The notes under the pieces were generated by a model that saw only the letters and a program-made list of their open reading frames with translations, was not told where the DNA came from and made no database searches. From Emticicia sp. BO119 (lineage in GTDB: Bacteria > Bacteroidota > Bacteroidia > Cytophagales > Spirosomataceae), in NCBI RefSeq assembly GCF_013912375.1, contig NZ_JACETV010000015.1, forward strand, positions 1 through 64,000: DNA of 64,000 nucleotides, read 5' to 3'. Made by a program: the position numbers and the translations under genes. The first letter of the stretch is position 1. Each line of letters starts with the position of its first letter. Shown here piece by piece: positions 45,820 to 58,247 of this stretch.

Positions 45820-46491
45820 TTGAATAGAAGAGATGCCATGCAAAGAGTGGCCTTCCTGATGGGAGGTGCTTTGTCTGCCCCTACAATGATTGCTATGTTG
45901 GAAGGTTGTAAATCCAATACAGCTACTGAAGCAGCTACCTCAGCTTTTTCTTTTTCTCCCGATTACAAAAATTTAGTTTCTGAAATTGCTGAGATAATTA
46001 TTCCTAAAACCTCCACACCTGGTGCGAAAGATGCAGGAGTAGGCCCCTTTATAGAAGTGATGTTAAAGGATTGCTATTCAAGTGCCCAGCAAGAACACTT
46101 CAAAAAAGGATTAGATGCTTTAGAAGAAAGTTCTAAGGAACAGTTTGGAAAGAAATTTCTTGAAGTTACTCCTGAACAGCAAACCGCTCTTTTGAAGAAA
46201 TTCGAACAGCTGGCGATGGCTGAAGTTAAGGAAAATGAGCAGCCTAAAAAAATAGTAGATAATGAAACAGGACTGGTAAAAGACCCTAAGAGCCCTGACC
46301 CTAAAAAGGGTGAAGAAACAAAGCAGGTAGTGCCGCCTGTGCCTTTCTTTAAATTGATGAAAGAGCTTACTTTGTTAGGATATTTTACCTCTGAAGCTGG
46401 TGCAAAAAATGCTTTGGCGTATGTAGCCATACCGGGTAGATATGAAGGATGTGTGAAGATGACTCCAGGTCAAAAAGTTTGGGCTTTGTAA
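45820..46491 (+). CDS. gluconate 2-dehydrogenase subunit 3-like protein, Tat signal
   Basis: A 223-residue protein resembling the small (gamma) subunit of gluconate/2-keto-sugar dehydrogenases. With the TTG start at 45820 the N-terminus is MNRRDAMQRVAFLMGG, a Tat-type twin-Arg signal followed by a hydrophobic run and a Cys (LEGC). A later ATG at 45838 would remove the twin Arg. The body contains EIAEIIIPKTSTPGAKDAGV, typical of the family, and ends KMTPGQKVWAL. The small subunit usually carries the Tat signal for the catalytic subunit, encoded by the next gene 27 bases downstream. Confidence 0.82.
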   Translation: MNRRDAMQRVAFLMGGALSAPTMIAMLEGCKSNTATEAATSAFSFSPDYKNLVSEIAEIIIPKTSTPGAKDAGVGPFIEVMLKDCYSSAQQEHFKKGLDALEESSKEQFGKKFLEVTPEQQTALLKKFEQLAMAEVKENEQPKKIVDNETGLVKDPKSPDPKKGEETKQVVPPVPFFKLMKELTLLGYFTSEAGAKNALAYVAIPGRYEGCVKMTPGQKVWAL

Positions 46492-46518
46492 AAATTAAAA
46501 GAAATTCAACCTAAGACA

Positions 46519-48237
46519 ATGAATATTCAAGGAAAATCAAAAGAACAAATGACTTACGACGCCATCGTTGTAGGTTCAGGTATATCAGGTGGTTGGGCTG
46601 CTAAAGAATTGTGCGAAAAAGGGCTCAAAGTTTTAATGCTTGAGCGTGGACGTGATATTAAACATATAACAGGGTACATAACAGCCGGCAAAAATCCATG
46701 GGATTTCCCTCACAGAGGAAAAGTAGATAATATGGCACGTGAGGAGTACTGGGCCAATGTCCGTACCGGCTATACAGCCAATGAAGAGCACCGCCATCAT
46801 TTTGAAAACGATAAACAAAACCCCTATCTTGAAAAACGCGGTTTTGACTGGATCAGAGGGTATCATGTAGGTGGCCGTTCACTGATGTGGGGCCGTCAGA
46901 GTTACCGTTGGAATGAAAGAGACTTTACTGCTAACTTGGAAGACGGACATGGTATCGATTGGCCTATCCGTTATAAAGATATTGCTCCCTGGTATAGCTA
47001 TGTAGAGACTTTCATCGGTGTAAGTGGTTATAAAGAGGGCTTAGATGTATTACCTGATGGCAATTTCCAACCGGGTATGGAAATGAACTGTGTCGAGAAG
47101 GAAGTACGTAACTCAATCCAGAAAAAATTCAACGGTCGTCATGTAACGATTGGCCGTGCGGCACATATCACTAAACCTACGCAGATACAAACTGAGTTAG
47201 GCCGCGTTTCGTGCCAGTATCAGAATGCCTGTATGCGTGGTTGTCAGTTTGGTGCTTATTTTAGTACGCAGTCAGCTACTTTACCTGCGGCCAATAAAAC
47301 AGGCAACCTTACTTTAATGGCAGATAAAATAGTCTATCAGGTAATCTTTGATGATGAGAAAGGCAAGGCAGTTGGTGTAAAAACCATCGACCAGAATACC
47401 AATGAGCAAATGGATTTCTTCTCAAAAATTATCTTCCTGAATGCCTCGGCAATTAATTCAGCATGGATTATGATGCAATCGAAATCTAAGACTCATCCGA
47501 ATGGCTTGGGGAATGAATCTGACCAATTGGGTAGAAATATCATGGATCACCACTTAGCAGTAGGTGCTTCCGGTACTTTCGAAGGCATGGAAGATATGTA
47601 CTACTATGGTCGCCGTGCCAATGGTGTGTACATTCCACGTTTTACTAACTGGGGTAGCGATAAGAGGAAAGATTTTGTGAGAGGCTTTGGCTATCAGGGG
47701 GGGGCCAGTCGCGAAGGATGGGGAAGAGGAAATTACAAGGAAGGGTTCGGTGCCGACTTCAAAGAATCAATAACCACTCCAGGTCAATGGACATTTGGTA
47801 TAGGTGGTTTCGGTGAAACTCTTCCTGACGAAAACAATCGCTTCACTCTTTCAAATGATAAAGATAAATGGGGATTACCCGTAGTACAATTTGATGCAGC
47901 ATGGGGCGATAATGCCATAAAAATGCGTGAAGCTATGAAGAATGAAGCAGCAGAAATGCTGGAAGCAGCAGGGCTGAAAAACATCAATGCCTATAACGAC
48001 ATGAGCAAAAATCCGGGTATTGGTATTCACGAAATGGGTACGGCTCGCATGGGTAGAGACAAAAAAACATCTGTATTGAATGCAAATAATCAGGTTTGGG
48101 GAGCTCCGAATGTATTTGTAACTGATGGTGCGTTTATGGTTTCTGCTTCTTGTGTAAACCCATCATTGACTTACATGGCAATGACTGCCCGCGCAGCAGA
48201 TTTTGCAGTGAAAGAACTGAAAAAGATGAATATTTAG
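46519..48237 (+). CDS. GMC-type oxidoreductase, gluconate dehydrogenase catalytic subunit-like
   Basis: A 572-residue FAD-dependent GMC oxidoreductase. The FAD motif is IVVGSGISGGWAAKELCEKG (about 15-34), followed by VGGRSLMWGRQSYRW and a Cys-rich GCQFGAYFST segment. The C-terminal domain has GIHEMGTARMG (His active site) and CVNPSLTYMAMTARAAD. It lacks a signal peptide and is probably exported with the upstream Tat-carrying subunit. The usual cytochrome c subunit is not seen downstream, so another electron acceptor or an unlinked gene may serve. It oxidises a sugar or sugar acid; the exact one is not known. Confidence 0.87.
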   Translation: MNIQGKSKEQMTYDAIVVGSGISGGWAAKELCEKGLKVLMLERGRDIKHITGYITAGKNPWDFPHRGKVDNMAREEYWANVRTGYTANEEHRHHFENDKQNPYLEKRGFDWIRGYHVGGRSLMWGRQSYRWNERDFTANLEDGHGIDWPIRYKDIAPWYSYVETFIGVSGYKEGLDVLPDGNFQPGMEMNCVEKEVRNSIQKKFNGRHVTIGRAAHITKPTQIQTELGRVSCQYQNACMRGCQFGAYFSTQSATLPAANKTGNLTLMADKIVYQVIFDDEKGKAVGVKTIDQNTNEQMDFFSKIIFLNASAINSAWIMMQSKSKTHPNGLGNESDQLGRNIMDHHLAVGASGTFEGMEDMYYYGRRANGVYIPRFTNWGSDKRKDFVRGFGYQGGASREGWGRGNYKEGFGADFKESITTPGQWTFGIGGFGETLPDENNRFTLSNDKDKWGLPVVQFDAAWGDNAIKMREAMKNEAAEMLEAAGLKNINAYNDMSKNPGIGIHEMGTARMGRDKKTSVLNANNQVWGAPNVFVTDGAFMVSASCVNPSLTYMAMTARAADFAVKELKKMNI

Positions 48238-48284
48238 TCTTTAAAACAACGATTTTCGTAACAACAGACCAGAAAAATCGTAAT

Positions 48285-48327
48285 AAATCAAAAAGGCTTC
48301 GAATCAATTTCGAAGCCTTTTTGATTT
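48285..48327 (+). terminator. 19-bp stem terminator
   Basis: A 19-bp perfect stem (48285-48303 with 48309-48327) and 5-base loop, core AAAAAGGCTTCGAA. It lies between convergent genes and serves both directions. Confidence 0.85.
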
Positions 48328-49048
48328 ATATCTTATTCAATTTTAATAATACATCTTTCAATTCCTGTTCACTGATTTCTCCGGTTGCACTCCAGGTTCG
48401 CCTGCCTTTTTTTATAATGATATAAGTTGGATTTTCTTCTACTTTAAAAACCGAAGCAATAATATCATTTTTCTCCGAATCAACTTTCAGCAATTTTATC
48501 TGTTTGTTTTCATCAGCAATTTTGTTGATCATGGGGGTCATCTTTTTGCAGACATCACACCATTCTGTATAAAAAAGAATCAAAACCACTTCATTCGCCT
48601 TCACAATATCATCAAGATTCTGCAAAGTTAGTGCTGCAATAGGCTTAGTATTAGTGGTGCTTGATACATAAGGTTTGCTTGAGGCTGTCCACTGTGCAAA
48701 ACCTCCGTTAAGGTCATATACCTCTTTAAAACCTAAGGTTCTTAGAAAAGCTGCGGCATCAGCACTACGTTTTCCTGAAAAACAATACAAAAAAACAGGT
48801 TTGGTTTTATCTAATCTCTTTTTAGCTACCTCTTCAAAATCATCATCAGTAAAGTTGATATTTACTGCGCGCTTGATATGGCCAATCACAAATTCAGACG
48901 GTGTACGCACATCTACCAATTGAGAAGTTGGCCCAATTACTTTGATTTTATTATCAAAATCATCGACATTTAAAGAATTGAGGTCTTTATTTTGTGCTTT
49001 AATAGATAAACCAGTCAAAATAAAAACTATAGAAAATAGAAACTTCAT
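48326..49048 (-). CDS. exported rhodanese-thioredoxin fusion protein
   Basis: About 240 residues from the Met at 49048; ten extra residues are possible to 49078, but the Sec signal (MKFLFSIVFILTGLSIKAQ) begins at 49048. Residues about 22-115 are a rhodanese domain with PVFLYCFSGKRSADAA (active Cys). Residues about 130-240 are thioredoxin-like with LFYTEWCDVCKKMTPMI (CxxC). Fusion of sulfurtransferase and thioredoxin folds suggests redox control of sulfane sulfur or persulfide in the periplasm; this is inference. Confidence 0.82.
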   Translation of the reverse strand: MKFLFSIVFILTGLSIKAQNKDLNSLNVDDFDNKIKVIGPTSQLVDVRTPSEFVIGHIKRAVNINFTDDDFEEVAKKRLDKTKPVFLYCFSGKRSADAAAFLRTLGFKEVYDLNGGFAQWTASSKPYVSSTTNTKPIAALTLQNLDDIVKANEVVLILFYTEWCDVCKKMTPMINKIADENKQIKLLKVDSEKNDIIASVFKVEENPTYIIIKKGRRTWSATGEISEQELKDVLLKLNKI

Positions 49049-49150
49049 TGGTATGATAAGGTAGTAATAAAGGGACAAAAAACTCTGTTCCGATTTTGTA
49101 ACGAATCTAAGTTATAATTATTGAATACTGACAATATCAATTAATAATAA

Positions 49151-49939
49151 CTATCGGTTACCTGAATGCAAAAAACTCTGAACCGACAAACTGCTTGGCA
49201 TAGACAATATTCCCTCGTAATCGATTTCATCAAATGTTAAGTCATCAGGAATTTTCTCTTCTGCACTATGATTCACAATCATATTATAATAAGAAAAGCT
49301 ATCAAAAGGAACCGACAAGCGATAAAGAATAGTATGGTCAGGGCTTTTGTTCTCCATTTTCCAGATAGCTAATTTCGTTTGTTCATTAAGAATCTTTATC
49401 GTAAATTTTACACCCTGAAAACAATCAATTACAATGCCATTGGCAGAGTTTTGAATTGATTTAATGAAATAGGTATCTGGCCCTAAGCCTTTGCTGACTA
49501 AAACAGTAGAGTCGGTCAGGGAAAATGAATAATGATTCTTGATAACCTTCGGGCAGAAAATATAAGTAGTTCCATTAAGTTCCTGGGCTTCAAACCATTT
49601 TTTGGGAAGCTGACTTAACAGAGGGTCATTCCTGAACGACCATAATTCGTTTATTTTCTTGGATGCTTTAAAATCCCGACATGCTCGCTGAATAAGCGAT
49701 TCATGATAGTCATCAAACATCAGTTTTTCAATCAGATTCTTAGCGAAAACAGAGTTTTGAGTAGTATCAATAAAAACACCATACCTTTTTTTAATCATCT
49801 TATCAGGATTATCAGGATAAATGGTGATAGTCTGATTATAAAAGCTTCGGTAAACGGTTTCAGATAATTTTTTAGAGCTTTGCGCGCTAAGATTAAAAAT
49901 AAAAAGGCATAGTAACCCACCAATAGTAATTGTCTTCAT
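49151..49939 (-). CDS. exported protein of unknown function
   Basis: A 262-residue protein with a Sec signal (1-20, ending LSAQ). The body has mixed helices and beta strands without a motif I recognise (VYRSFYNQTITIYPDNP, IYFCPKV). It may be lipid- or cofactor-binding, but there is no direct support. It is 72 bases upstream of the rhodanese-thioredoxin gene on the same strand. Confidence 0.65.
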   Translation of the reverse strand: MKTITIGGLLCLFIFNLSAQSSKKLSETVYRSFYNQTITIYPDNPDKMIKKRYGVFIDTTQNSVFAKNLIEKLMFDDYHESLIQRACRDFKASKKINELWSFRNDPLLSQLPKKWFEAQELNGTTYIFCPKVIKNHYSFSLTDSTVLVSKGLGPDTYFIKSIQNSANGIVIDCFQGVKFTIKILNEQTKLAIWKMENKSPDHTILYRLSVPFDSFSYYNMIVNHSAEEKIPDDLTFDEIDYEGILSMPSSLSVQSFLHSGNR

Positions 49940-50344
49940 AGGGGCACGAGTATAGATTCATCAACTTTGTTATTAAGCGGTTGCAAAAATCGTGCTAAAA
50001 AAAATTCCCCGATAAACATAAATTATTCAATATAAGTAATTGATAATGAGTGATTTATGCGTATTTTTTTTGTTGGTGTTCTATTGCAATACATTTGGAA
50101 TAGTTATTGTAGTGCCATTCAATCACTTTTTGGTCGACCTGAATCGGGTGCGTACCAGAGATTCAGTTTTACCATTTATCTAATAAAGAATTACCGTGTC
50201 AAAATCTGATAACGCACGCAGTATAGCACTGATAGTAAAAAAAACGCAGAATAACTCAATAGTTTGATTTTATCGGAAACCTTCCTGAACACTTTGAAAA
50301 CACAATCCTAAGTCGGAAATTTAGGGAACGCCCGGTTAAAGAAA
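49940..50344. other. 405 bp without a gene
   Basis: I see no gene. The sequence is partly repetitive in composition and contains several short palindromes. The divergent promoters for the flanking genes should be here. Confidence 0.4.
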
Positions 50345-50353
50345 ATGAAACCG

Positions 50354-50509
50354 GAAAAGGTTACCAATATGGTGGGAACCTTTTTGAAGGAAGAGAGTGA
50401 TGGTTTCCAGGTACAAGCCACTCAAATGGCGTTAGAAAAGGTTGCCAATATGGTGGGAACCTTTTTGAATGAGGATAGAAATGGTTTCAGGGTATGAGCC
50501 AGTACAAAT
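50354..50509. repeat. tandem 81-bp repeat with a hairpin in each unit
   Basis: Two units (50354-50427 and 50435-50509) share GAAAAGGTT(A/G)CCAATATGG and more. Each has inverted AAAAGGTT ... AACCTTTTT arms. Period 81 equals 27 codons: a 50-codon frame from ATG 50345 to TGA 50497 carries two 27-residue repeats (EKV-x-NMVGTFL, then GF-x-V). This could be a small repeat protein or a non-coding repeat; see findings. Confidence 0.6.
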
Positions 50510-50579
50510 AAATAAAAAACTGTATTTTCAACTGTCACCTTTTCAGTTTTATGCATCATAGTGTAAAGCAAAATCTAAA

Positions 50580-52016
50580 ATGACCGAACCGACGCAGAAT
50601 TTCTGGGAAACTACCTATAAGCAAAACATTGGTAAAATGCTGGGCATTTGCTATCGCTATGTGCGCGATAAACAGATTGCTGAGGATTTGGCTCATGATG
50701 CCTTTCTGCAAGCCATTGATAGATCGTCGACTTATAAAGGTGAAGGGCATTTTGATGCCTGGCTCAGAAAGATAGCAGTAAATGAAGCCTTACAATATTT
50801 AAGAGACCAGAAGAAAAAAGAATATCATAATGAATGGATACAATATGAAAATGAAAACATGAATGCAAACGAAGAAGTATTGGCAATGGATTTCAGTGAG
50901 GAAGAATTATTAAGTGCCGTTAATCAATTGCCAGAGCATCATAAAATGGTATTTAATCTTTATGTAATTGATAAATTCAGTCATGCAGAAATAGCGCAGG
51001 AGTTAGGTATCAACGAAAATACTTCAAAATCGCATCTGGCAAGGGCGAGAAAGAAAATCAGAAAGATATTATCAGAGAAAAGAGATAAGAAACAGACAGT
51101 ATGGGCTTTGTTCTTGCCATTCAAACTCTGGAATATAGACAAGACTTATCAAAAAGCATTTCTGGATTTTGAAATAGAACCAACACATTTGTTGACGATT
51201 GATGCAAGCGATTCTGCGACTATCACCCTTCCCAAATTTAACCCTTATCCACTTATTTCAAAAAGTTTTATTAAGTCTGGTATTGCTTTGGGAAGTGTGG
51301 CAGTAGGTTTATTTACAGTACTTATTCTATTAGAACAAGAACCGAAGACTGAAGTACATAAAGATATAGCAAACCATGTAAAACCTACTGAACTCATAGC
51401 AGAGACAGTGGCCAATGCCGATAATCAGGATAGTTCGGGCATTTTTATAGATAATAATGTAGATAAACTCAATACGTCAAAAAATAATGATTCTTCAAGT
51501 GCAACTATTGCGGATAATTCCATCATAACTGATGAAAACAATTTAAACAACACAGATATGAAAAGGTTAAACACGGTAGGAGCATTACTATTGGCAGGAG
51601 CTGCCAGTATGGGATTTGATTCATCAAAAAATCAGGAACTTAAATTCGGGTCTGGCCTGAAACTTCCTGATATTCAATATCAGGAAAAACAGAAAGGAAT
51701 GATAATAGACAGAAAAGAGGGAGAGGGAACTTTTAATGCATCAAAAATAACATGGTCGTCTAAAAATCATAATGTTTTTATGAAGGGTATTGGTATGCGA
51801 GCAAAGTTTGGAAAAGATAATTTTAATGCCACAGGTACTATTTCTTTTTTAGGGGAAGTCTATTATTTATTGATTGACGGAGAAGAAGCTCCGTTTGATA
51901 AAGATATAAAGCTTTCAGAGGGGAATTATTCTGTAAAGTCATTAAGTATTCAACAGGCCACGCAAAAATATGGGGAGAAAGGGAGAAATGGAGCTGTTGA
52001 AATAGTGAAGCTTTGA
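50580..52016 (+). CDS. ECF sigma factor fused to transmembrane and C-terminal periplasmic-type domain
   Basis: A 478-residue protein with one continuous frame. Residues about 10-80 are sigma region 2 (MLGICYRYVRDKQIAEDLAH, FDAWLRKIAVNEALQYLRD) and about 108-165 region 4 (LPEHHKMVFNLYVIDKFSHA, ELGINENTSKSHLARARKKI). A predicted membrane helix follows at about 231-251 (SGIALGSVAVGLFTVLILL), then an Asn/Asp/Ser-rich linker (about 255-325). A second hydrophobic patch (about 331-345, NTVGALLLAGAAS) precedes a beta-rich tail. The last 20 residues (YGEKGRNGAVEIVKL) match the end of TonB-plug-like and M56/BlaR-like proteins. A sigma factor tethered to the membrane is unusual. The two parts could also be two old genes joined. 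Confidence 0.82.
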   Translation: MTEPTQNFWETTYKQNIGKMLGICYRYVRDKQIAEDLAHDAFLQAIDRSSTYKGEGHFDAWLRKIAVNEALQYLRDQKKKEYHNEWIQYENENMNANEEVLAMDFSEEELLSAVNQLPEHHKMVFNLYVIDKFSHAEIAQELGINENTSKSHLARARKKIRKILSEKRDKKQTVWALFLPFKLWNIDKTYQKAFLDFEIEPTHLLTIDASDSATITLPKFNPYPLISKSFIKSGIALGSVAVGLFTVLILLEQEPKTEVHKDIANHVKPTELIAETVANADNQDSSGIFIDNNVDKLNTSKNNDSSSATIADNSIITDENNLNNTDMKRLNTVGALLLAGAASMGFDSSKNQELKFGSGLKLPDIQYQEKQKGMIIDRKEGEGTFNASKITWSSKNHNVFMKGIGMRAKFGKDNFNATGTISFLGEVYYLLIDGEEAPFDKDIKLSEGNYSVKSLSIQQATQKYGEKGRNGAVEIVKL

Positions 52017-52020
52017 TAAA

Positions 52021-52271
52021 TTAAATACTAACTCGTTGGGTGAAATTGTATACAAAGATTTTTAATATACCGTCCCTACGGGACTTAAGAGTTAATTTAG
52101 CTGTTTTTTCTAAAGATATAACATCCCTACGGGGACGCCCAGTCGGGATGTTTTTAGTCCCGTTAGGGACAGTATATCGGTAGTAAAATCTAAATTTCCG
52201 AATCTCTGTATCCCGACTGGGCGTCCCCGTAGGGATAATATATTTTTAATTTCACTCAATGAGTTAAATAC
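52021..52271. mobile_element. MITE-like palindromic element with apparent 8-bp target duplication
   Basis: The ends (AACTCGTTGGGTGAAATT at 52030-52047 and the near-complement at 52248-52265) form an 18-bp inverted repeat with 16 matches. TTAAATAC occurs at 52021-52028 and again at 52264-52271, consistent with an 8-bp target-site duplication. Inside is a perfect 27-bp inverted pair (52123-52149 and 52210-52236, core CCCTACGGGGACGCCC) and two smaller palindromes, GTCCCTACGGGAC and GTCCCGTTAGGGAC (near 52072 and 52157). It has no gene, so it would need a transposase elsewhere. Its REP-like palindromes could also act on transcription. Confidence 0.7.
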
Positions 52272-52418
52272 CATTTTTTAAAATATAAACTCAATAATAA
52301 CGATACGCATTTTAGAGTTCATCACTCAATTACAGGTCTTTTAGGGCAATGTGCTATCTTATTTTTTCTGGTTCAACCCAAGGGTTTCTCTCAGGGCAGC
52401 CATTTAGATAGCACAATC

Positions 52419-53510
52419 GTGAGTTTTATGACTGAAAAAAAGATTCCGGGCTTTGCTGCTTGCAAGGTAGGAAATGATAGAATTATCTGGTCAAAAGCCT
52501 ACGGTCAAGCTAATATTGAAAAGAAAACGCCGATGAGTATTGATGGGATTATGAATATAGGCTCCATATCAAAGACATTCACCACTACGGCAATCATGCA
52601 ACTATGGGAGAAAGGGAAAATAAAATTAGAAGCAGAGGTAAATGATTATGTAGGTTTTACCGTCAGAAATCCGAAATTTCCAGATAAGCCTATTACTATT
52701 TTTCAATTGTTAACCCATACTTCATCTATCCGTGATGGAGAATCCTACAATCATAGTTATTCCTGCGGAGACCCGACCATTAGTCTTCATGACTGGATAT
52801 ATGATAATCTTAACGAAAAAGGTAAACTCTTTGGTAACGGAGATAATTTCCATGATTTCGCACCGGGAGAGAAAGAAAAATATTCAAATGTTGGTTTCGG
52901 ACTTTTAGGCCTTGTTGTAGAAAAGGTCTCTAAGCAACCTTTGAATATTTATTGCAGAAATTTTATCTTCAACCCTCTGGGAATGAATAAAACAGGGTGG
53001 ATGTTGAGCGAGGTAGATACAAATAATTATATTACTCCGTATGCTTTTGTTACCAAAGAGAACCTAAATGAACTATTGGAAAATAAAACATTATTCCCAA
53101 AAAATCCTGAGTTGAAAGAAGGTAGTTTTGTGGCTCATTGTCTATATAGTTTCCCTAATTATCCAGATGGGCTTGTCAGAACAAGTATAAGAGAATTGTC
53201 TTATTTTCTTAGGGCAATGATGAATGGGGGGCAACTAAATGGTGCAAGAATCCTGAACGAAAGTACTGTTTCAAAAATGCTTACCTTGCAGATTGAGGGC
53301 AATAATCATAGAGGATTATGTTGGGCGAAGACTGAATATAAGCTACCTGACAAAACTATTACATTATGGGGCCATGGTGGTGGTGACCCAGGTATTGCTA
53401 CTTCTCTTTTATTCAATCCAATTGATAAAACCGGAGTAATCACATTTCAGAATAGTGAAACTGGTGGAACAGGAGACATTGTTAGGAGAATATACCTTGA
53501 AGTAAAATAA
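52419..53510 (+). CDS. serine hydrolase, beta-lactamase class C-like, with missing or altered start
   Basis: Serine hydrolase core of about 360 residues. SxxK is SISK, then the YxN motif is YSNVGFGLLG and the third motif WGHGGGDPG, all intact. From the GTG at 52419 (or ATG at 52428) the protein lacks a signal peptide. The frame is open upstream to 52263 and codes a hydrophobic signal-like segment (LLGQCAILFFLVQ ... GFSQ at about 52338-52394) in phase, but it contains no ATG, GTG or TTG. The natural start has probably been lost or replaced, and a palindromic element is inserted just upstream. It may be a pseudogene, a cytoplasmic remnant, or start at an unusual codon. Confidence 0.7.
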   Translation: MSFMTEKKIPGFAACKVGNDRIIWSKAYGQANIEKKTPMSIDGIMNIGSISKTFTTTAIMQLWEKGKIKLEAEVNDYVGFTVRNPKFPDKPITIFQLLTHTSSIRDGESYNHSYSCGDPTISLHDWIYDNLNEKGKLFGNGDNFHDFAPGEKEKYSNVGFGLLGLVVEKVSKQPLNIYCRNFIFNPLGMNKTGWMLSEVDTNNYITPYAFVTKENLNELLENKTLFPKNPELKEGSFVAHCLYSFPNYPDGLVRTSIRELSYFLRAMMNGGQLNGARILNESTVSKMLTLQIEGNNHRGLCWAKTEYKLPDKTITLWGHGGGDPGIATSLLFNPIDKTGVITFQNSETGGTGDIVRRIYLEVK

Positions 53511-53514
53511 AGAC

Positions 53515-53560
53515 TTAGCGTCTGTTTAAATAGTATCGATACTATTTAAACAGACGCTAA
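53515..53560. terminator. 46-bp perfect palindrome between convergent genes
   Basis: The halves 53515-53537 and 53538-53560 are exact complements with no spacer (starts TTAGCGTCTG). It could end transcription in both directions. It is 5 bases from one stop and 20 from the other. Confidence 0.75.
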
Positions 53561-53580
53561 AATATGATTGATTTTTGGCT

Positions 53581-54786
53581 TTAATAAACAAATTCGCCAA
53601 ACTCACTTTTAATCGTCACCTGTTTGGTTTCAAACGATTCAACGCGACCAATGATTTGGGCATCTATATTAAAGGACTGCGAGATTTCGATAATGCGCTG
53701 GGCATATTGTTGTGGCAGATATACTTCTAAACGATGCCCCATATTAAATACCTTATACATCTCTTGCCAGCTGGTACCACTTTGCTCATGTATCATTTTA
53801 AACAATGGCGGAATCGGGAATAGGTTATCTTTAATGACATGGAGTTTGTTAATAAAATGCAAGACCTTGGTTTGAGCACCACCACTGCAATGCACCATAC
53901 CATGAATATGAGGGCGGAGCTCATCTAAAAATACCTTGGCTACCGGAGCATAGGTTCGGGTAGGGGATAAGATGAGTTTACCTACATTGGGTAGTTTATC
54001 TAAGGTTTCTTTGTCAAGTGTAGCATTATAAGGCTCGGTAGCTGTTTCGTCCGTTAAAGATTTTTTGCCACTATAAATCAATGAGAAATCAATGTCTCCA
54101 TCAAAACTTTCAGGGTATTTTTCGGCGTAGATTTTATCTAATACATCGTGTCGGGCAGAGGTTAAGCCATTGCTACCCATACCGCCATTGTATTGTTTTT
54201 CGTAAGTAGCTTGTCCATAAGAAGCCAGACCTACAATCACATCACCTGCTTCTATGCGATCGTTAGAAATTACATCGGCTCTTTTCATGCGGGCAATCAA
54301 CGTACTGTTTACAGCAATCGTTCTTACCAAATCACCCACATCAGCCGTTTCTCCTCCTGTGCTATAAATCTCAATGCCATGACTGCGAAGCATTTCCAGG
54401 CACTCTTCTGTGCCATTGATAATCTCAGCAATCACCTCTCCCGGAATCTTGTTTTTGTTTCTATCAATGCTGGATGAAATCAACATTGGCCCTACCGAAC
54501 CTACGCATAGCAAATCATCTGTATTCATAACTATAGAATCCTGCGCGATGCCTCTCCAGACTGATAGGTCTCCGGTTTCTTTCCAATACAGATAAGCCAG
54601 AGAGGTTTTCGTACCAGCACCATCTGCGTGCATGATGTTACAGTACTCAGCATCCCCACCTAAAGTATCAGGTGAAATCTTACAAAAAGCTTTCGGGAAT
54701 AAACCTTTATCAAGCTTTTCAATAGCTTTGTGAACATCTTCTTTGGCGGCAGAAACGCCGCGCTGCATATAACGGTCGGTACTCAT
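53581..54786 (-). CDS. PurM-like phosphoribosylformylglycinamidine cyclo-ligase
   Basis: A 401-residue protein of the AIR-synthase (PurM) superfamily. Residues include GGDAEYCNIMHADGAGTKTS (ATP/substrate loop), MNTDDLLCVGSVG, GGETADVGDLVR and GLASYGQATYEKQYNGGMGS (phosphate loop), with GMVHCSGGAQTK in the C-terminal half. It converts FGAM to AIR in purine synthesis if it is PurM itself. Bacteroidota often carry this longer form, annotated as AIR-synthase-related, and the exact role in vivo could differ. Confidence 0.82.
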   Translation of the reverse strand: MSTDRYMQRGVSAAKEDVHKAIEKLDKGLFPKAFCKISPDTLGGDAEYCNIMHADGAGTKTSLAYLYWKETGDLSVWRGIAQDSIVMNTDDLLCVGSVGPMLISSSIDRNKNKIPGEVIAEIINGTEECLEMLRSHGIEIYSTGGETADVGDLVRTIAVNSTLIARMKRADVISNDRIEAGDVIVGLASYGQATYEKQYNGGMGSNGLTSARHDVLDKIYAEKYPESFDGDIDFSLIYSGKKSLTDETATEPYNATLDKETLDKLPNVGKLILSPTRTYAPVAKVFLDELRPHIHGMVHCSGGAQTKVLHFINKLHVIKDNLFPIPPLFKMIHEQSGTSWQEMYKVFNMGHRLEVYLPQQYAQRIIEISQSFNIDAQIIGRVESFETKQVTIKSEFGEFVY

Positions 54787-54855
54787 CTATAATTGATTTT
54801 TGGTGCAAAGGTAAGAAAATGTCCTTTGCCTGCCGAAATAAATCTTTGGTTTCAA

Positions 54856-55644
54856 CTATTTTACTCGCTTCCGCCTCTCCAAATCAAATTTCTCTCCTTT
54901 TTCCAACATCAGAAACTTCATTTCATTCCGAGACTTTTGCGCTTCAAAAATCATGACCTGACTTTCGCCCATTACCTCTGCTATTTTATTACCTTCTATA
55001 TATACAGCCGTATTCTCATCAATACCCACACCTAACAATTCAGGATTCTGAAAGATTAAGCCAATCAAACGATTCTGTCTCTGGCGCTTAATAAAATGCT
55101 GGTCGACAATGATATTGGTTAATAATCCTAATCCTTTCTTTATTTCTACTTTCGAGCCGTCAATCACTTTAAAATCCCCTTCTCCTGTTATCATCTTTTG
55201 GCTCATAATAGCAGTCCCGGCGCTTGTCCCGGCAAATACTACTTTGTTTTGGTATTTCGTGTGCAGCGCACTGAATAATTCCTCGTCTTGTAAAACTGTC
55301 ATAATTCGTGTCTGGTCTCCCCCACAAAAAAACACACCTGTAGCAGATTTCAACTGATTCAGAAAGATAGCTTTTGTCTCTGGAGTCAGAGGAGATAAAG
55401 AAGCCTTTTCAACCTTAATTTTTGAAAGCGCTACAATATCTTTATTAAAGGCTTCAAAACTTTCATCCTGCACACCACTTGCCCATGGAATCACCAGAAT
55501 TTTGCCATTTTCTTTCCCGCTTAGTTCGATAAATTTCGTGAGCACATCGGGTGTGCGTTTTCCACCGCCTATCATTATTAAACGTTCTTGCGCTATTAGA
55601 GAAGTACTTAAGAGTATGAAAAGGAGAAAGATTAATCGTTGCAT
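54856..55644 (-). CDS. exported cyanophycinase-like serine peptidase (S51)
   Basis: About 262 residues from the Met at 55644, where a Sec signal (MQRLIFLLFILLSTSLIAQ) begins; 16 further residues are possible upstream. The mature part starts MIGGGKRTP, a motif near the active site of cyanophycinases. The catalytic Ser is in VFAGTSAGTAIMSQKM, and FCGGDQTRIM and VDQHFIKRQRQNRL supply other conserved residues. Members cleave cyanophycin or related beta-aspartyl dipeptide polymers. Export implies extracellular polymer use. It is divergent from a GH130 lipoprotein gene; start codons are about 80 bases apart. Confidence 0.85.
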   Translation of the reverse strand: MQRLIFLLFILLSTSLIAQERLIMIGGGKRTPDVLTKFIELSGKENGKILVIPWASGVQDESFEAFNKDIVALSKIKVEKASLSPLTPETKAIFLNQLKSATGVFFCGGDQTRIMTVLQDEELFSALHTKYQNKVVFAGTSAGTAIMSQKMITGEGDFKVIDGSKVEIKKGLGLLTNIIVDQHFIKRQRQNRLIGLIFQNPELLGVGIDENTAVYIEGNKIAEVMGESQVMIFEAQKSRNEMKFLMLEKGEKFDLERRKRVK

Positions 55645-55667
55645 TTTAGATTTATTAAGATTGTCTA

Positions 55668-55675
55668 TATATTTG
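55668..55675 (+). promoter_or_regulatory. candidate -7 element of the GH130 gene
   Basis: TATATTTG matches TAnnTTTG exactly and lies 48 bases before the ATG at 55724, between divergent genes. A -33 TTG is not convincing. Confidence 0.35.
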
Positions 55676-55723
55676 AATGAAGGATACAACACTTTAATTT
55701 CTATTCACCGAAAATACAAATCT

Positions 55724-56803
55724 ATGAAAAAATACCTTTTCATTCTTTCTATCTCATTAGCAGCCTGCGAAAATAAAGCCGAACAACAAGATTGGCAACT
55801 TACCCCTTTCGTAAAACAAGACACCTACAACCCCATTTTAACCGCTAATGATACCACCACTTTTAATGATCCTATTTTGAAAAGAACCATTAACTGGGAA
55901 GCAAAAGATGTCTACAACCCATCAGCAGTAGTAAAAGACGGAAAAGTGTATTTATTATACAGAGCAGAAGACACGCTGAAAGTAGTTGATGGTACTTCCC
56001 GCTTAGGTCTGGCTGTGAGCAACGATGGCATTCATTTTACACGTCAGCCAAAGCCTGTGTTTTATCCGACAGAAGATTTCATGAAAAAATATGAGTATCC
56101 CGGAGGTTGCGAAGACCCTCGCCTTGTGGAAACAGCCGATGGTAAATATATATTGACCTATACCGCCTATGATGGAAAAACTGCCCGCCTATGCGTAGCC
56201 TCATCGCCTGATTTACAAAACTGGAAAAAAGAAGGCTTGGCCTTTAAAGATGCTAAATATGAAAGCCTATGGTCAAAATCAGGTGCGATTATCTGCGAAA
56301 AAGTAAACGAGAAATTCATTGCCAAAAAAATTAATGGTAAATACTGGATGTATTTTGGTGATACGAATCTTTTTCTGGCAAGTTCAGACAACCTGACCGA
56401 CTGGACACCTCTGGAAGGGGGAGATGGAAAACCAAAACCAATTGTAAAACCAAGAGACGATAATTTTGATAGCTGGTTGGTAGAATCTGGTCCAGCGGCC
56501 TTCATCACCGATAAGGGTATCCTATTAATATATAATAGCGCCAACAAAGGTTTCCAGAATAAAGCTACTGATACAAAAAATGCTTATAGAGCAGGACAGG
56601 TATTGTTTGATAAAAACGACCCGACTAAAATTCTTGACCGCTCAAAAACTTTCTTCTTTGAGCCGGATAAACCTTATGAATTAACCGGACAGGTAAATAA
56701 TGTAGTTTTTGTAGAAGGTCTGGTAAACTTCAAAGATCGCTGGTTTTTATACTATGGCACAGCCGATTCAAAAATTGCAGTGGCGGTTAGCGATAAAAAG
56801 TAA
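55724..56803 (+). CDS. GH130-like glycoside phosphorylase/hydrolase lipoprotein
   Basis: A 359-residue protein. Residues 1-14 are a lipoprotein signal with lipobox LAAC. The body is a five-bladed propeller with NPSAVVKDGKVYLLYRAEDT, YPGGCEDPRLVETADGKYIL and WLVESGPAAFITDKGILLIYN, a pattern of GH130 (beta-mannoside phosphorylases and related hydrolases). A lipoprotein form suggests action on oligosaccharides outside the cytoplasm, where a hydrolase rather than phosphorylase is more likely. An upstream extension (to 55502) exists but is antisense to the cyanophycinase gene. Confidence 0.82.
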   Translation: MKKYLFILSISLAACENKAEQQDWQLTPFVKQDTYNPILTANDTTTFNDPILKRTINWEAKDVYNPSAVVKDGKVYLLYRAEDTLKVVDGTSRLGLAVSNDGIHFTRQPKPVFYPTEDFMKKYEYPGGCEDPRLVETADGKYILTYTAYDGKTARLCVASSPDLQNWKKEGLAFKDAKYESLWSKSGAIICEKVNEKFIAKKINGKYWMYFGDTNLFLASSDNLTDWTPLEGGDGKPKPIVKPRDDNFDSWLVESGPAAFITDKGILLIYNSANKGFQNKATDTKNAYRAGQVLFDKNDPTKILDRSKTFFFEPDKPYELTGQVNNVVFVEGLVNFKDRWFLYYGTADSKIAVAVSDKK

Positions 56804-56812
56804 TGGAATTAT

Positions 56813-56881
56813 ACAGTATAAATATAATATATAAGGGGAATTCTGACTCAGAATTCCCCTTATATATTATATTTATACTGT
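56813..56881. terminator. 69-bp perfect palindrome between convergent genes
   Basis: Two 34-bp arms (56813-56846 and 56848-56881) are exact complements with one central base (56847). It begins ten bases after the GH130 stop and ends eight bases before the ArgH stop. It can form a very stable hairpin on either strand (core GGGGAATTCTGA). Confidence 0.8.
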
Positions 56882-56888
56882 CGCTAAT

Positions 56889-58247
56889 TTATTCTTCCGT
56901 TCCCCAATTCAACAATTTCTCAAACGCTGTATCTATTTTTTCAAACTCAAAGCTTTTAATAACATCATTCATCATTTGCACAATCTCTCCATTACACAAA
57001 TTCCCAATGCTGCCCTCTAATGTATGATTCAGTTCTCGGGATGCTTCATAAGTACCTCCGAAAATCTCATCTTTCACTTGTAGATAAGCGTCTCTGAATG
57101 GCAAACCTTGAATCACCAACTCATTCACTCTTTCAACCGAGAAGATTGGGTCATATTTTTTATCAGCCAGCAAATCTTGTTTTACTTGGATATTAGGTAG
57201 CATCATAGCCGTAATGTCCAGACACTCTATTATCTGGTCGAAGGCAGGCATCAGGATTTCTTTCAGAATCTGCATATCTCTGTGATAACCACTTGGCAGG
57301 TTACTTGTAACAAAAGCTAATTCTGTAGGTAAGCCTTTTAGTCGGTTGGTTTTGGCTCTCAGTAACTCAGCCACATCAGGATTTTTCTTATGAGGCATAA
57401 TACTACTGCCTGTAGTAAAGTCATCAGGCAATGTGAGGAATCCGAAATTCTGTGAATTGTACAGGCATATATCCATAGCCAGCCTTGATAGGGTAGTGGC
57501 CAATGAGGTCAAGGCTGATAAAGTTATGTATTCGGTTTTGCCGCGTGTCATTTGAGCATAAACTACATTATAATTAAGGCCATCAAAACCTAATAATTCA
57601 GTTGTCAACTTTCTGTTTAATGGAAACGAACTCCCATAGCCTGCCCCAGACCCTAAAGGATTTTTATTGACAACTTTGTAAGCGCCCAGCAAGATATTCA
57701 CATCGTCTACCAGACTTTCGGCATAGGCACCAAACCAAAGCCCGAAAGAAGATGGCATAGCAATTTGTAGGTGCGTATAACCGGGTAGCAAATCATTTCT
57801 ATGTATTTCACTCTTTTCAATCAGGTGTCTGAAAACCAGTTCAATCTTCTGAACAATAGTTCGCACCTGATGGCGCATGAATAGTTTTAAGTCTACCAAT
57901 ACTTGATCATTACGAGAGCGTCCGCTGTGGATTTTTTTACCTGCATCGCCTAATGCCTGAGTCAATAGCCATTCTACCTGAGAATGTACATCCTCGATAT
58001 TTTTCTCAATCAAAAATTTGTCATTTCCAATATCATTGTATATCTTTCGACACTCTTTCAAGAGACTCCCTAATTCATCGGTTTCGAGCAAGCCAATTGT
58101 TTCTAACATGATGGCATGTGCCATTGAGCCAAGTACATCAAACTCGGCGAGATACAAGTCCATCTCACGGTCGTGCCCAACCGTAAAGTTTTCAATAACG
58201 TTATTTTCTGTAGTATTTTTACTGCTTTCCTTTTGCCAGAGTTTCAC
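56889..58247 (-). CDS. argH: argininosuccinate lyase
   Basis: A 452-residue member of the fumarase/aspartase superfamily. The signature GSSIMPHKKNPDVAELLRAK (about 285-304) holds the catalytic loop Ser. HSQVEWLLTQALGDAGKKIH and SGRSRNDQVLVDLKLFMR line the active site, with GYTHLQIAMPSSFGLWF. It cleaves argininosuccinate to arginine and fumarate. It is alone on the minus strand, so the arginine operon is not clustered here. Confidence 0.95.
   Translation of the reverse strand: MKLWQKESSKNTTENNVIENFTVGHDREMDLYLAEFDVLGSMAHAIMLETIGLLETDELGSLLKECRKIYNDIGNDKFLIEKNIEDVHSQVEWLLTQALGDAGKKIHSGRSRNDQVLVDLKLFMRHQVRTIVQKIELVFRHLIEKSEIHRNDLLPGYTHLQIAMPSSFGLWFGAYAESLVDDVNILLGAYKVVNKNPLGSGAGYGSSFPLNRKLTTELLGFDGLNYNVVYAQMTRGKTEYITLSALTSLATTLSRLAMDICLYNSQNFGFLTLPDDFTTGSSIMPHKKNPDVAELLRAKTNRLKGLPTELAFVTSNLPSGYHRDMQILKEILMPAFDQIIECLDITAMMLPNIQVKQDLLADKKYDPIFSVERVNELVIQGLPFRDAYLQVKDEIFGGTYEASRELNHTLEGSIGNLCNGEIVQMMNDVIKSFEFEKIDTAFEKLLNWGTEE

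Follow-up and report, generated by a model that had tools for sequence, protein, structure and literature searches.

We describe here a single gene of Emticicia sp. BO119 that encodes, in one uninterrupted chain, an ECF sigma factor, a short anti-sigma-like segment, one transmembrane (TM) helix, a linker and a C-terminal domain, with one promoter-like element (P1) in front of its start codon and a second one (P2) within its own coding sequence, 5' of an invariant inner methionine. This arrangement is probably that of a self-read sigma/anti-sigma fusion, in which proteolysis would release the sigma part, transcription would proceed from both P1 and P2, and a free C-terminal product would be made. 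With slightly less assurance, we favour the view that the regulon is nested in the gene itself, a promoter being written in the codons of the periplasmic linker, where one stretch of DNA would serve as promoter and as protein, so that activation would yield more regulator together with a free secreted domain. Sigma/anti-sigma fusions are already known; the in-frame promoter and its reading as a nested regulon would be the new elements. If true, a regulator and the principal target of that regulator would share one gene, in whose codons a promoter would have been retained in many species, and this gene would constitute a compact envelope sensor on its own. The window analysed is the stretch of 64,000 nucleotides at positions 1-64,000 (forward strand) of contig NZ_JACETV010000015.1 (assembly GCF_013912375.1), and its relevant features are the following.

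50533..50559, + strand: P1, ECF-type promoter-like element (TGTCACCTTT-N11-CATCAT), with the end of CATC 22 nt 5' of the start codon
50580..52016, + strand: full-length gene (478 aa), ECF sigma factor, anti-sigma-like segment, TM helix, linker and C-terminal domain
50616..50816, + strand: sigma-70 region 2, residues 13-79 (Pfam PF04542, Sigma70_r2, E 8.1e-15)
50901..51059, + strand: sigma-70 region 4, residues 108-160 (Pfam PF08281, Sigma70_r4_2, E 1.7e-16)
51129..51191, + strand: anti-sigma-like motif WNIDKTYQKAFLDFEIEPTHL, residues 184-204, with a profile-profile match to separate anti-sigma-type proteins
51276..51332, + strand: predicted TM helix, residues about 233-251, from hydropathy only
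51500..51526, + strand: P2, ECF-type promoter-like element within the coding sequence (TGCAACTATT-N11-CATCAT)
51558..52016, + strand: nested in-frame ORF, M327 to the end (152 aa), with a signal-peptide-like start MKRLNTVGALLLAGAASMGF; proposed separate P2 product
51726..52013, + strand: beta-rich C-terminal domain with a plug-like tail, residues 383-478

Architecture and conservation of the fused protein

The ORF at 50580-52016 (+) runs from ATG to TGA without internal stop. Its product is an ECF sigma factor by its domains, PF04542 and PF08281 both being above cut-off. Against the NCBIfam model of the sigma70-ECF superfamily (TIGR02937), it obtains 94.8 bits for a cut-off of 42.9; its best NCBIfam score, 101.3 bits with the Bacteroidota subfamily TIGR02985, lies below the cut-off of 126.4. 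In the part separating sigma region 4 from the linker, hydropathy over 19 residues is highest at residues 233-251 (Kyte-Doolittle mean of 2.29), and a TM-like stretch is present in all 22 long-form proteins described below (1.59-2.48). The original prediction of a 478-codon frame with sigma regions 2 and 4 and of a helix at residues 231-251 is thus borne out by ORF reading, Pfam and hydropathy, and the Asn/Ser-rich linker and the C-terminal ending YGEKGRNGAVEIVKL that it had described are both present in the sequence. An AlphaFold model of the full-length protein was too poor to use (mean pLDDT of 35).

The same domain order is found in 22 distinct long-form proteins of 452-507 aa from 22 genomes, window included, which answers the proposal to look for homologues with the same fused architecture. 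Sigma regions 2 and 4 come first and are followed by the short anti-sigma-like segment, a single TM helix, a linker that varies and, last, the beta-rich domain and its plug-like tail. These proteins, aligned together (window, L001-L004 and L031-L047), form 10 clusters at 50% identity and are related sequences, not independent ones; L027-L029, at the same places as L001-L003, and L030, identical in protein to L004, had been dropped before counting. The idea of a sigma factor with an extracytoplasmic part, conserved and probably membrane-held, thereby gains support. In the 3264 codons that separate residue 166 from the inner Met over the 22 rows, the coding frame contains no stop, whereas the two alternative frames have 217 and 287, with stops in every one of the 22 rows. 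The linker varies from 41 to 79 residues in length and the reading frame is kept in every long-form gene.

A product of decay, frameshift or misassembly might have been suspected, as the other ECF genes listed in this genome encode only 168-227 aa. The recurrence of the architecture in 22 genomes already refutes this explanation and leaves it practically no chance. The original prediction had named two signs of an artefact, a stop or frameshift near codons 200-330 and the two halves encoded separately in related genomes. Neither stop nor frameshift was found there in the 22 long-form genes, and halves as separate genes were seen only in more distant ECFs and in short-form relatives with a separate secreted-protein gene. 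Neither gene decay nor misassembly accounts for the fusion.

Regarding its distribution, 39 places of the 6.57-Mb Emticicia sp. BO119 genome (G000) match the query, with a full-length match at the window locus only. The four nearest named relatives belong to Emticicia, and the long form occurs in 4 of 11 genomes of the genus (E 1e-35 or better) and in 18 of 150 genomes and 8 of 36 genera of the family (E 1e-50). At the order level, matches were obtained in 11 of 291 genomes, nine fused and two (L048, L049) being separate ECF genes. More distant relatives, such as L005 and L006, are shorter (345 to about 380 aa) and bear a beta-type tail such as VIRRDTIFIEK. Besides the genome itself, the class search (10 of 395 genomes matched) returned three of these shorter fused forms (G487, G553 and G414) and the phylum search (45 of 395) four (G414, G989, G1000 and G1031), most remaining rows of both searches having an open frame no longer than is usual for ECFs.

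Between sigma region 4 and the TM helix, the fused proteins display WNIDKTYQKAFLDFEIEP, in which D187 is invariant (22/22). Related ECF genes are closely followed on their 3' side by a separate gene, both in the same genome (L008, L014, L015, L017) and elsewhere (L048, L049, L054-L058, L066, L069, L084), whose product has a short start like DRLFQERFKNFEATP, looser in several cases, and then a membrane helix by eye. Sixteen fused segments and 13 separate proteins, compared by profile-profile alignment (hhalign), gave 70.5% (E 3.9e-5) over 21 columns only, and 68.8% over 19 columns with an earlier set of 11 separate proteins; L014 was included in the first anti-sigma profile (A5) and omitted from the second (A9). 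The pattern D..(F/Y)...(F/L)..(F/Y)...P fits the window protein, L066, L069, L084 and L049, and does not fit L008, L015 and L017; in the window protein, this short segment is placed before the TM helix as in the separate Bacteroidota anti-sigma type. Homology to these separate proteins is likely, for a short match, and the profile alignment leads us to read the fused segment as an anti-sigma segment presumably joined to the sigma factor. That the separate proteins are anti-sigma factors we infer from gene position and layout, Pfam having named no anti-sigma domain in the five that were tested. A separate anti-sigma-like gene was not found among the near neighbours of the window gene, in line with the earlier suggestion that no separate anti-sigma factor would be needed; what changes is that the protein appears, from the hhalign match, to carry its own.

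Several anti-sigma-type proteins deserve a side remark. The C-terminal half of an anti-sigma-type protein with a TM helix in L054 (1993-3543) matches the outer-membrane beta-barrel PF13568 above cut-off (E 1.9e-9), and that of its counterpart in L015 (1960-3165; same genome as the window, near G000:C1:563341) does so below cut-off (E 7.7e-4). Proteins of this type may span both membranes in one chain. In L006, L048, L052 and L061-L064, the anti-sigma tails (RDTIFIEK-like) and the start of the neighbouring secreted protein (DTVYVYEKVVVYDTVYL-like) have, by eye, a strand-like repeat in common, and the two might pair in the periplasm.

Promoter-like elements in front of and inside the gene

TGNNAC followed after 15 bases by CATC or CGTC has a shape and spacing that fit ECF promoters. 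Both elements of the window conform to the consensus TG(C/T)(A/C)AC(C/T)NTT-N11-CATC(A/T)T; neither they nor the inner start codon had been part of the original prediction. In its strict form, P1 lies upstream of 16 of the 22 long-form genes and in a relaxed form upstream of 21, the remaining one (L043) being recognised by eye; the relaxed form is met 0.0011 times per region in shuffled upstream sequences. Its variants are TATC (L034, L040), CATCC (L043) and an additional base (L044). At eight of the 22 loci (L031-L033, L036, L038-L041), the CATC of P1 ends only 9 nt 5' of the start codon, and a transcript would be leaderless or nearly so.

The P2 pattern was first noticed as constant DNA in the codons that precede the invariant inner Met; in the window, its CATC ends 33 nt 5' of the inner ATG. 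The residue before the conserved Ile/Val varies, being A (6), R (5), S (4), P (4) or G (3), and its codon ends in C in all 22 genes (0.22 expected). The next codon is ATC in 21 genes (0.31 expected) and GTC in one. Besides, a T ends the codon before the invariant Ala in 22/22, this Ala is encoded by GCC (17) or GCA (5), and the Thr by ACC (18) or ACT (4). When synonymous codons were resampled by each gene's own usage, 0.13 P2 matches were expected and 21 of 22 were observed, L047 being the single miss; (A/T)T does not follow CATC in L036, L038, L039 and L041. By these sequence data, P1 and P2 are constrained as DNA.

If the full-length protein of a plain membrane-tethered fusion were all that matters, residues 308-316 would form a protein motif, e.g. 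a protease site. This would be in keeping with the preserved reading frame and with the invariance of A308 and T309, I315 being nearly so. However, the synonymous positions are much more constant than codon usage would give, even though the encoded residues vary, and the same element stands in non-coding DNA 5' of the gene and after the sigma gene of G487, which makes a motif of the protein alone decidedly unlikely.

Among short-form relatives, the element is found 5' of the sigma gene in L005, L006, L051 and L052, and 5' of the first gene of an apparent operon in L053/L061 (the same place), L062, L063 and L064. G487 (L051/L152) has another copy in non-coding DNA, beginning 10 nt after the sigma-gene stop codon and 57 nt 5' of the ATG of the next gene, which has the signal-peptide start MKKIIFLAILSAIANIVFAQ. 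In the distant genome G553, the element is located within two ORFs (L052, L153), just 5' of an inner signal-peptide-like stretch (MKKEI...). These two arrangements could mean that P2 serves an independent downstream gene and that its joining to the sigma gene is incidental, with read-through of little function: in G487, the sigma gene ends in a stop before P2 and the signal-peptide gene are reached, and in G553, P2 lies within another ORF and not within the sigma gene. Yet all 22 long-form genes stay in frame between sigma region 4 and the inner Met, over linkers of 41-79 residues, with no stop in this frame against 504 in the other two, and we hold an incidental joining to be rather improbable. 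We prefer the reading of P2 as an in-frame promoter, and the same in-frame arrangement in the two G553 ORFs suggests a general device that would combine a long basal regulatory form with an induced short form. As a side observation, the element of these ORFs (L052 123-1142 and L153 1810-2826) comes in frame after N-terminal repeated VYDTxKVYDT-like strands. Their products look by eye like outer-membrane proteins, for which Pfam gave no supporting match, and long and short forms like those proposed for the window gene are possible.

Exact matches to the motif are confined to the locus in the genome itself, where P1 and P2 are the only ones. Among the other carriers of the genus, G007 has P1 and P2 only, G005 both and one elsewhere, and G001 both and two elsewhere; the non-carriers have none (G002, G003, G008, G009) or one (G004, G006, G010). 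With one mismatch allowed, no carrier-specific excess appears in the genus (51 matches versus 36 for the reversed pattern in four carriers; 84 versus 55 in seven non-carriers). In 24 further carriers, searched with one more free base than in the genus pattern, 30 of 41 exact matches are at the locus and two genomes (G099, G054) have none. The six off-locus matches in the genus (L092, L095, L097, L102, L103, L118) are all within ORFs and none is just 5' of a start, another ORF beginning about 110 nt downstream of L097. Five off-locus matches of the further carriers were examined, three in G187 and one each in G172, G122 and G1000 being left out. The one in G553 (L122/L153) looks real. The others look like chance: L123 and L126 are within ORFs, L137 is within an opposite-strand ORF near its start, and L142 is outside ORFs of at least 80 aa, with none starting within 150 nt. 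A wider regulon was considered and is not seen at exact-match stringency, the 11 off-locus matches of the further carriers not exceeding the 13 of the reversed control. In the same vein, the strict motif was upstream of none of 36 further ORFs, chosen at 52 ECF loci with a rough selection rule that in a few cases (e.g. L059) probably took an ORF other than that of the sigma factor or a misplaced start; a looser motif was upstream of one of these 36, another ECF gene of the same genome (L016).

The simplest reading would be that the window sigma factor recognises P1/P2-type elements and hardly any others. With P1 and P2 as its targets, the target set would consist mainly of its own locus, i.e. 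itself and its own tail. We infer that P1 and P2 are promoters read by this sigma factor from co-occurrence and geometry only, which leaves room for another regulator or another sigma factor controlling the locus through these sites. Against the latter stand the ECF-promoter spacing of the element and the near-absence of exact sites away from the locus, which would require co-inheritance of that factor in each carrier; in addition, the seven non-carriers of the genus hold three exact matches in all, each within ORFs. Control by such an outside factor is therefore unlikely.

Upstream of P1, a partly palindromic repeat, GGTT(A/G)CCAATATGGTGGGAACC, occurs at 50359-50380 and 50440-50461 of the window. 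It was rejected as a local operator since the surrounding 161 bp have 44 matches in the genome, itself included, as expected from a dispersed repeat.

The nested reading frame and the C-terminal domain

Met327 is invariant in the 22 long-form proteins and is followed by Lys or Arg in all of them; it lies 30-42 nt 3' of the P2 CATC box across these genes. A-richness is among the features of translation initiation in this group that do not involve Shine-Dalgarno pairing. The 20 nt 5' of the inner Met contain 56% A versus 34% for 140 other in-gene Met codons, nine of which reach 56%. Since the 20 nt 5' of the gene's own start also contain only 34% A, the A-rich leader is a weak support for an inner start. 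In this group, initiation is described as relying on features other than Shine-Dalgarno (PMC9723704). The signal-peptide-like stretch has a hydropathy of 0.54-1.49, versus 1.59-2.48 for the TM helix; its likeness to a signal peptide is clear by eye in L036, L040 and L043, weak in others, and many show no cleavage motif by eye. These features are consistent with a nested C-terminal product that would be made from P2. In the full-length chain, the same stretch could be a second membrane helix, a signal-peptidase site or a part of the periplasmic linker. The first option would place the C-terminal domain inside; for the second, the cutting of an anti-sigma factor at site 1 by signal peptidase, reported in Bacillus thuringiensis (PMC8844934), offers a precedent.

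The C-terminal domain has a G-(T/S)-F...W...G...G motif and a Y-G...EI tail in 15 aligned members. Its isolated model (mean pLDDT of 72) consists of long strands and then a strand-helix-strand unit, and fold searches with it gave no clear match. Pfam has no match to this part at E 1. A profile of the C-terminal domain, searched in 38 relatives, found five weak matches beyond the family (E 2.1e-5 to 6.7e-4); two of them (L161, L162) gave no ORF under the rule used, and the three that could be read as ORFs (L160, L163, L164) all contain Peptidase_M56 and two of them Plug. For the earlier comparison of the tail with plug domains of M56/BlaR-type proteins, there are weak and indirect profile matches to the tails of the two Plug-bearing proteins, and PF07715 (Plug) itself has no Pfam match. 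The likeness to M56/BlaR-type proteins, a YGEK...G(V/A)..I tail, is weak and limited to the last 50-70 residues, and their metallopeptidase domain (PF05569), present in L160, L163 and L164, is absent from the window protein. The domain may be a sensor, an effector or a feedback partner.

A probably self-read regulator and its relatives

The self-read fusion that we favour would function as follows. In the resting state, the sigma part would be held inactive by the membrane together with the anti-sigma segment. Cleavage would follow an envelope signal, for which the periplasmic part is probably the sensor, and the freed sigma part would recognise the consensus given above. Transcription from P1 would then yield more regulator from the gene itself, and transcription from P2 a short mRNA whose first start codon would be the in-frame ATG of M327. 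The P2 product would be the C-terminal domain alone which, with its signal-peptide-like start, would be exported to the envelope; this released copy of the tail could act as an effector, a signal sink or a feedback partner. Proteolytic release and the nature of the signal are conjectural parts of this scheme. The site-2 protease family M50 has two matches in the genome and is also found in all 14 control genomes.

The closest tested parallel is IutY (ECF243) of Pseudomonas putida, which combines a cytosolic ECF domain, one TM segment and a periplasmic part in one chain, as the window protein does with a helix predicted by hydropathy. The sigma domain of IutY is released by Prc and RseP and is activated, too, by premature stops at various points of the periplasmic part (PMC5411451). 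The partner of IutY in the response to aerobactin is the receptor IutA, whose gene adjoins iutY (PMC5411451 and PMC8999054). By contrast, the window gene has no adjacent receptor-sized gene (no ORF over 572 aa in 46000-57000; in other long-form rows, only the first residues of near genes were read, by eye), its anti-sigma-like segment precedes the TM helix, and its sequence contains a second promoter-like element as well as a nested ORF. Given the lack of an adjacent receptor gene and the different anti-sigma segment, we do not file it under the IutY type. ECF48, ECF52 and ECF53 of Actinobacteria are similarly fused at their C-terminus to a TM part with a further extension, but they contain a zinc-finger domain (PMC8999054), none being found here among the 12 Pfam families listed to E 1. 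In Bacteroidota, the ECF/anti-sigma-type pairs of L066, L069, L084 and L049, and more loosely of L008, L015 and L017, are two genes where the window has one chain.

As for promoters, a CGT box at -10 (motif SM6) has been read as ECF-type in Flavobacterium psychrophilum (PMC9723704). P1 and P2 have an ECF-type -10 box in common with it, here CATC and once CGTC, the comparison being one of -10 boxes only; a difference is that SM6 genes include type IX secretion components (same paper).

Among the papers listed by our literature search, none described a sigma/anti-sigma fusion in Bacteroidota or a promoter held within the coding part of one. An existing ECF group may already include this family, as at least 26 groups carry extensions, 15 of them unstudied (PMC8999054). 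ECF control in Bacteroidota is largely open: a class I anti-sigma partner is reported nearby for 6% of their ECFs versus 32% over all phyla (PMC7406223). Here, a regulator, its likely brake, an anchor, a sensor or effector and both candidate promoters are found within 1.5 kb.

Finally, the neighbours of the window gene are a 262-aa secreted-looking protein, encoded on the opposite strand, and, downstream, a serine hydrolase (52419-53510) whose homologue in L002 contains PF00144. The gap to this gene is 44-45 nt in L002 and L003 and about 400 nt in the window, where a signal-peptide-like part of the hydrolase reads upstream in frame without ATG, GTG or TTG. In L004, another PF00144 gene is located upstream.
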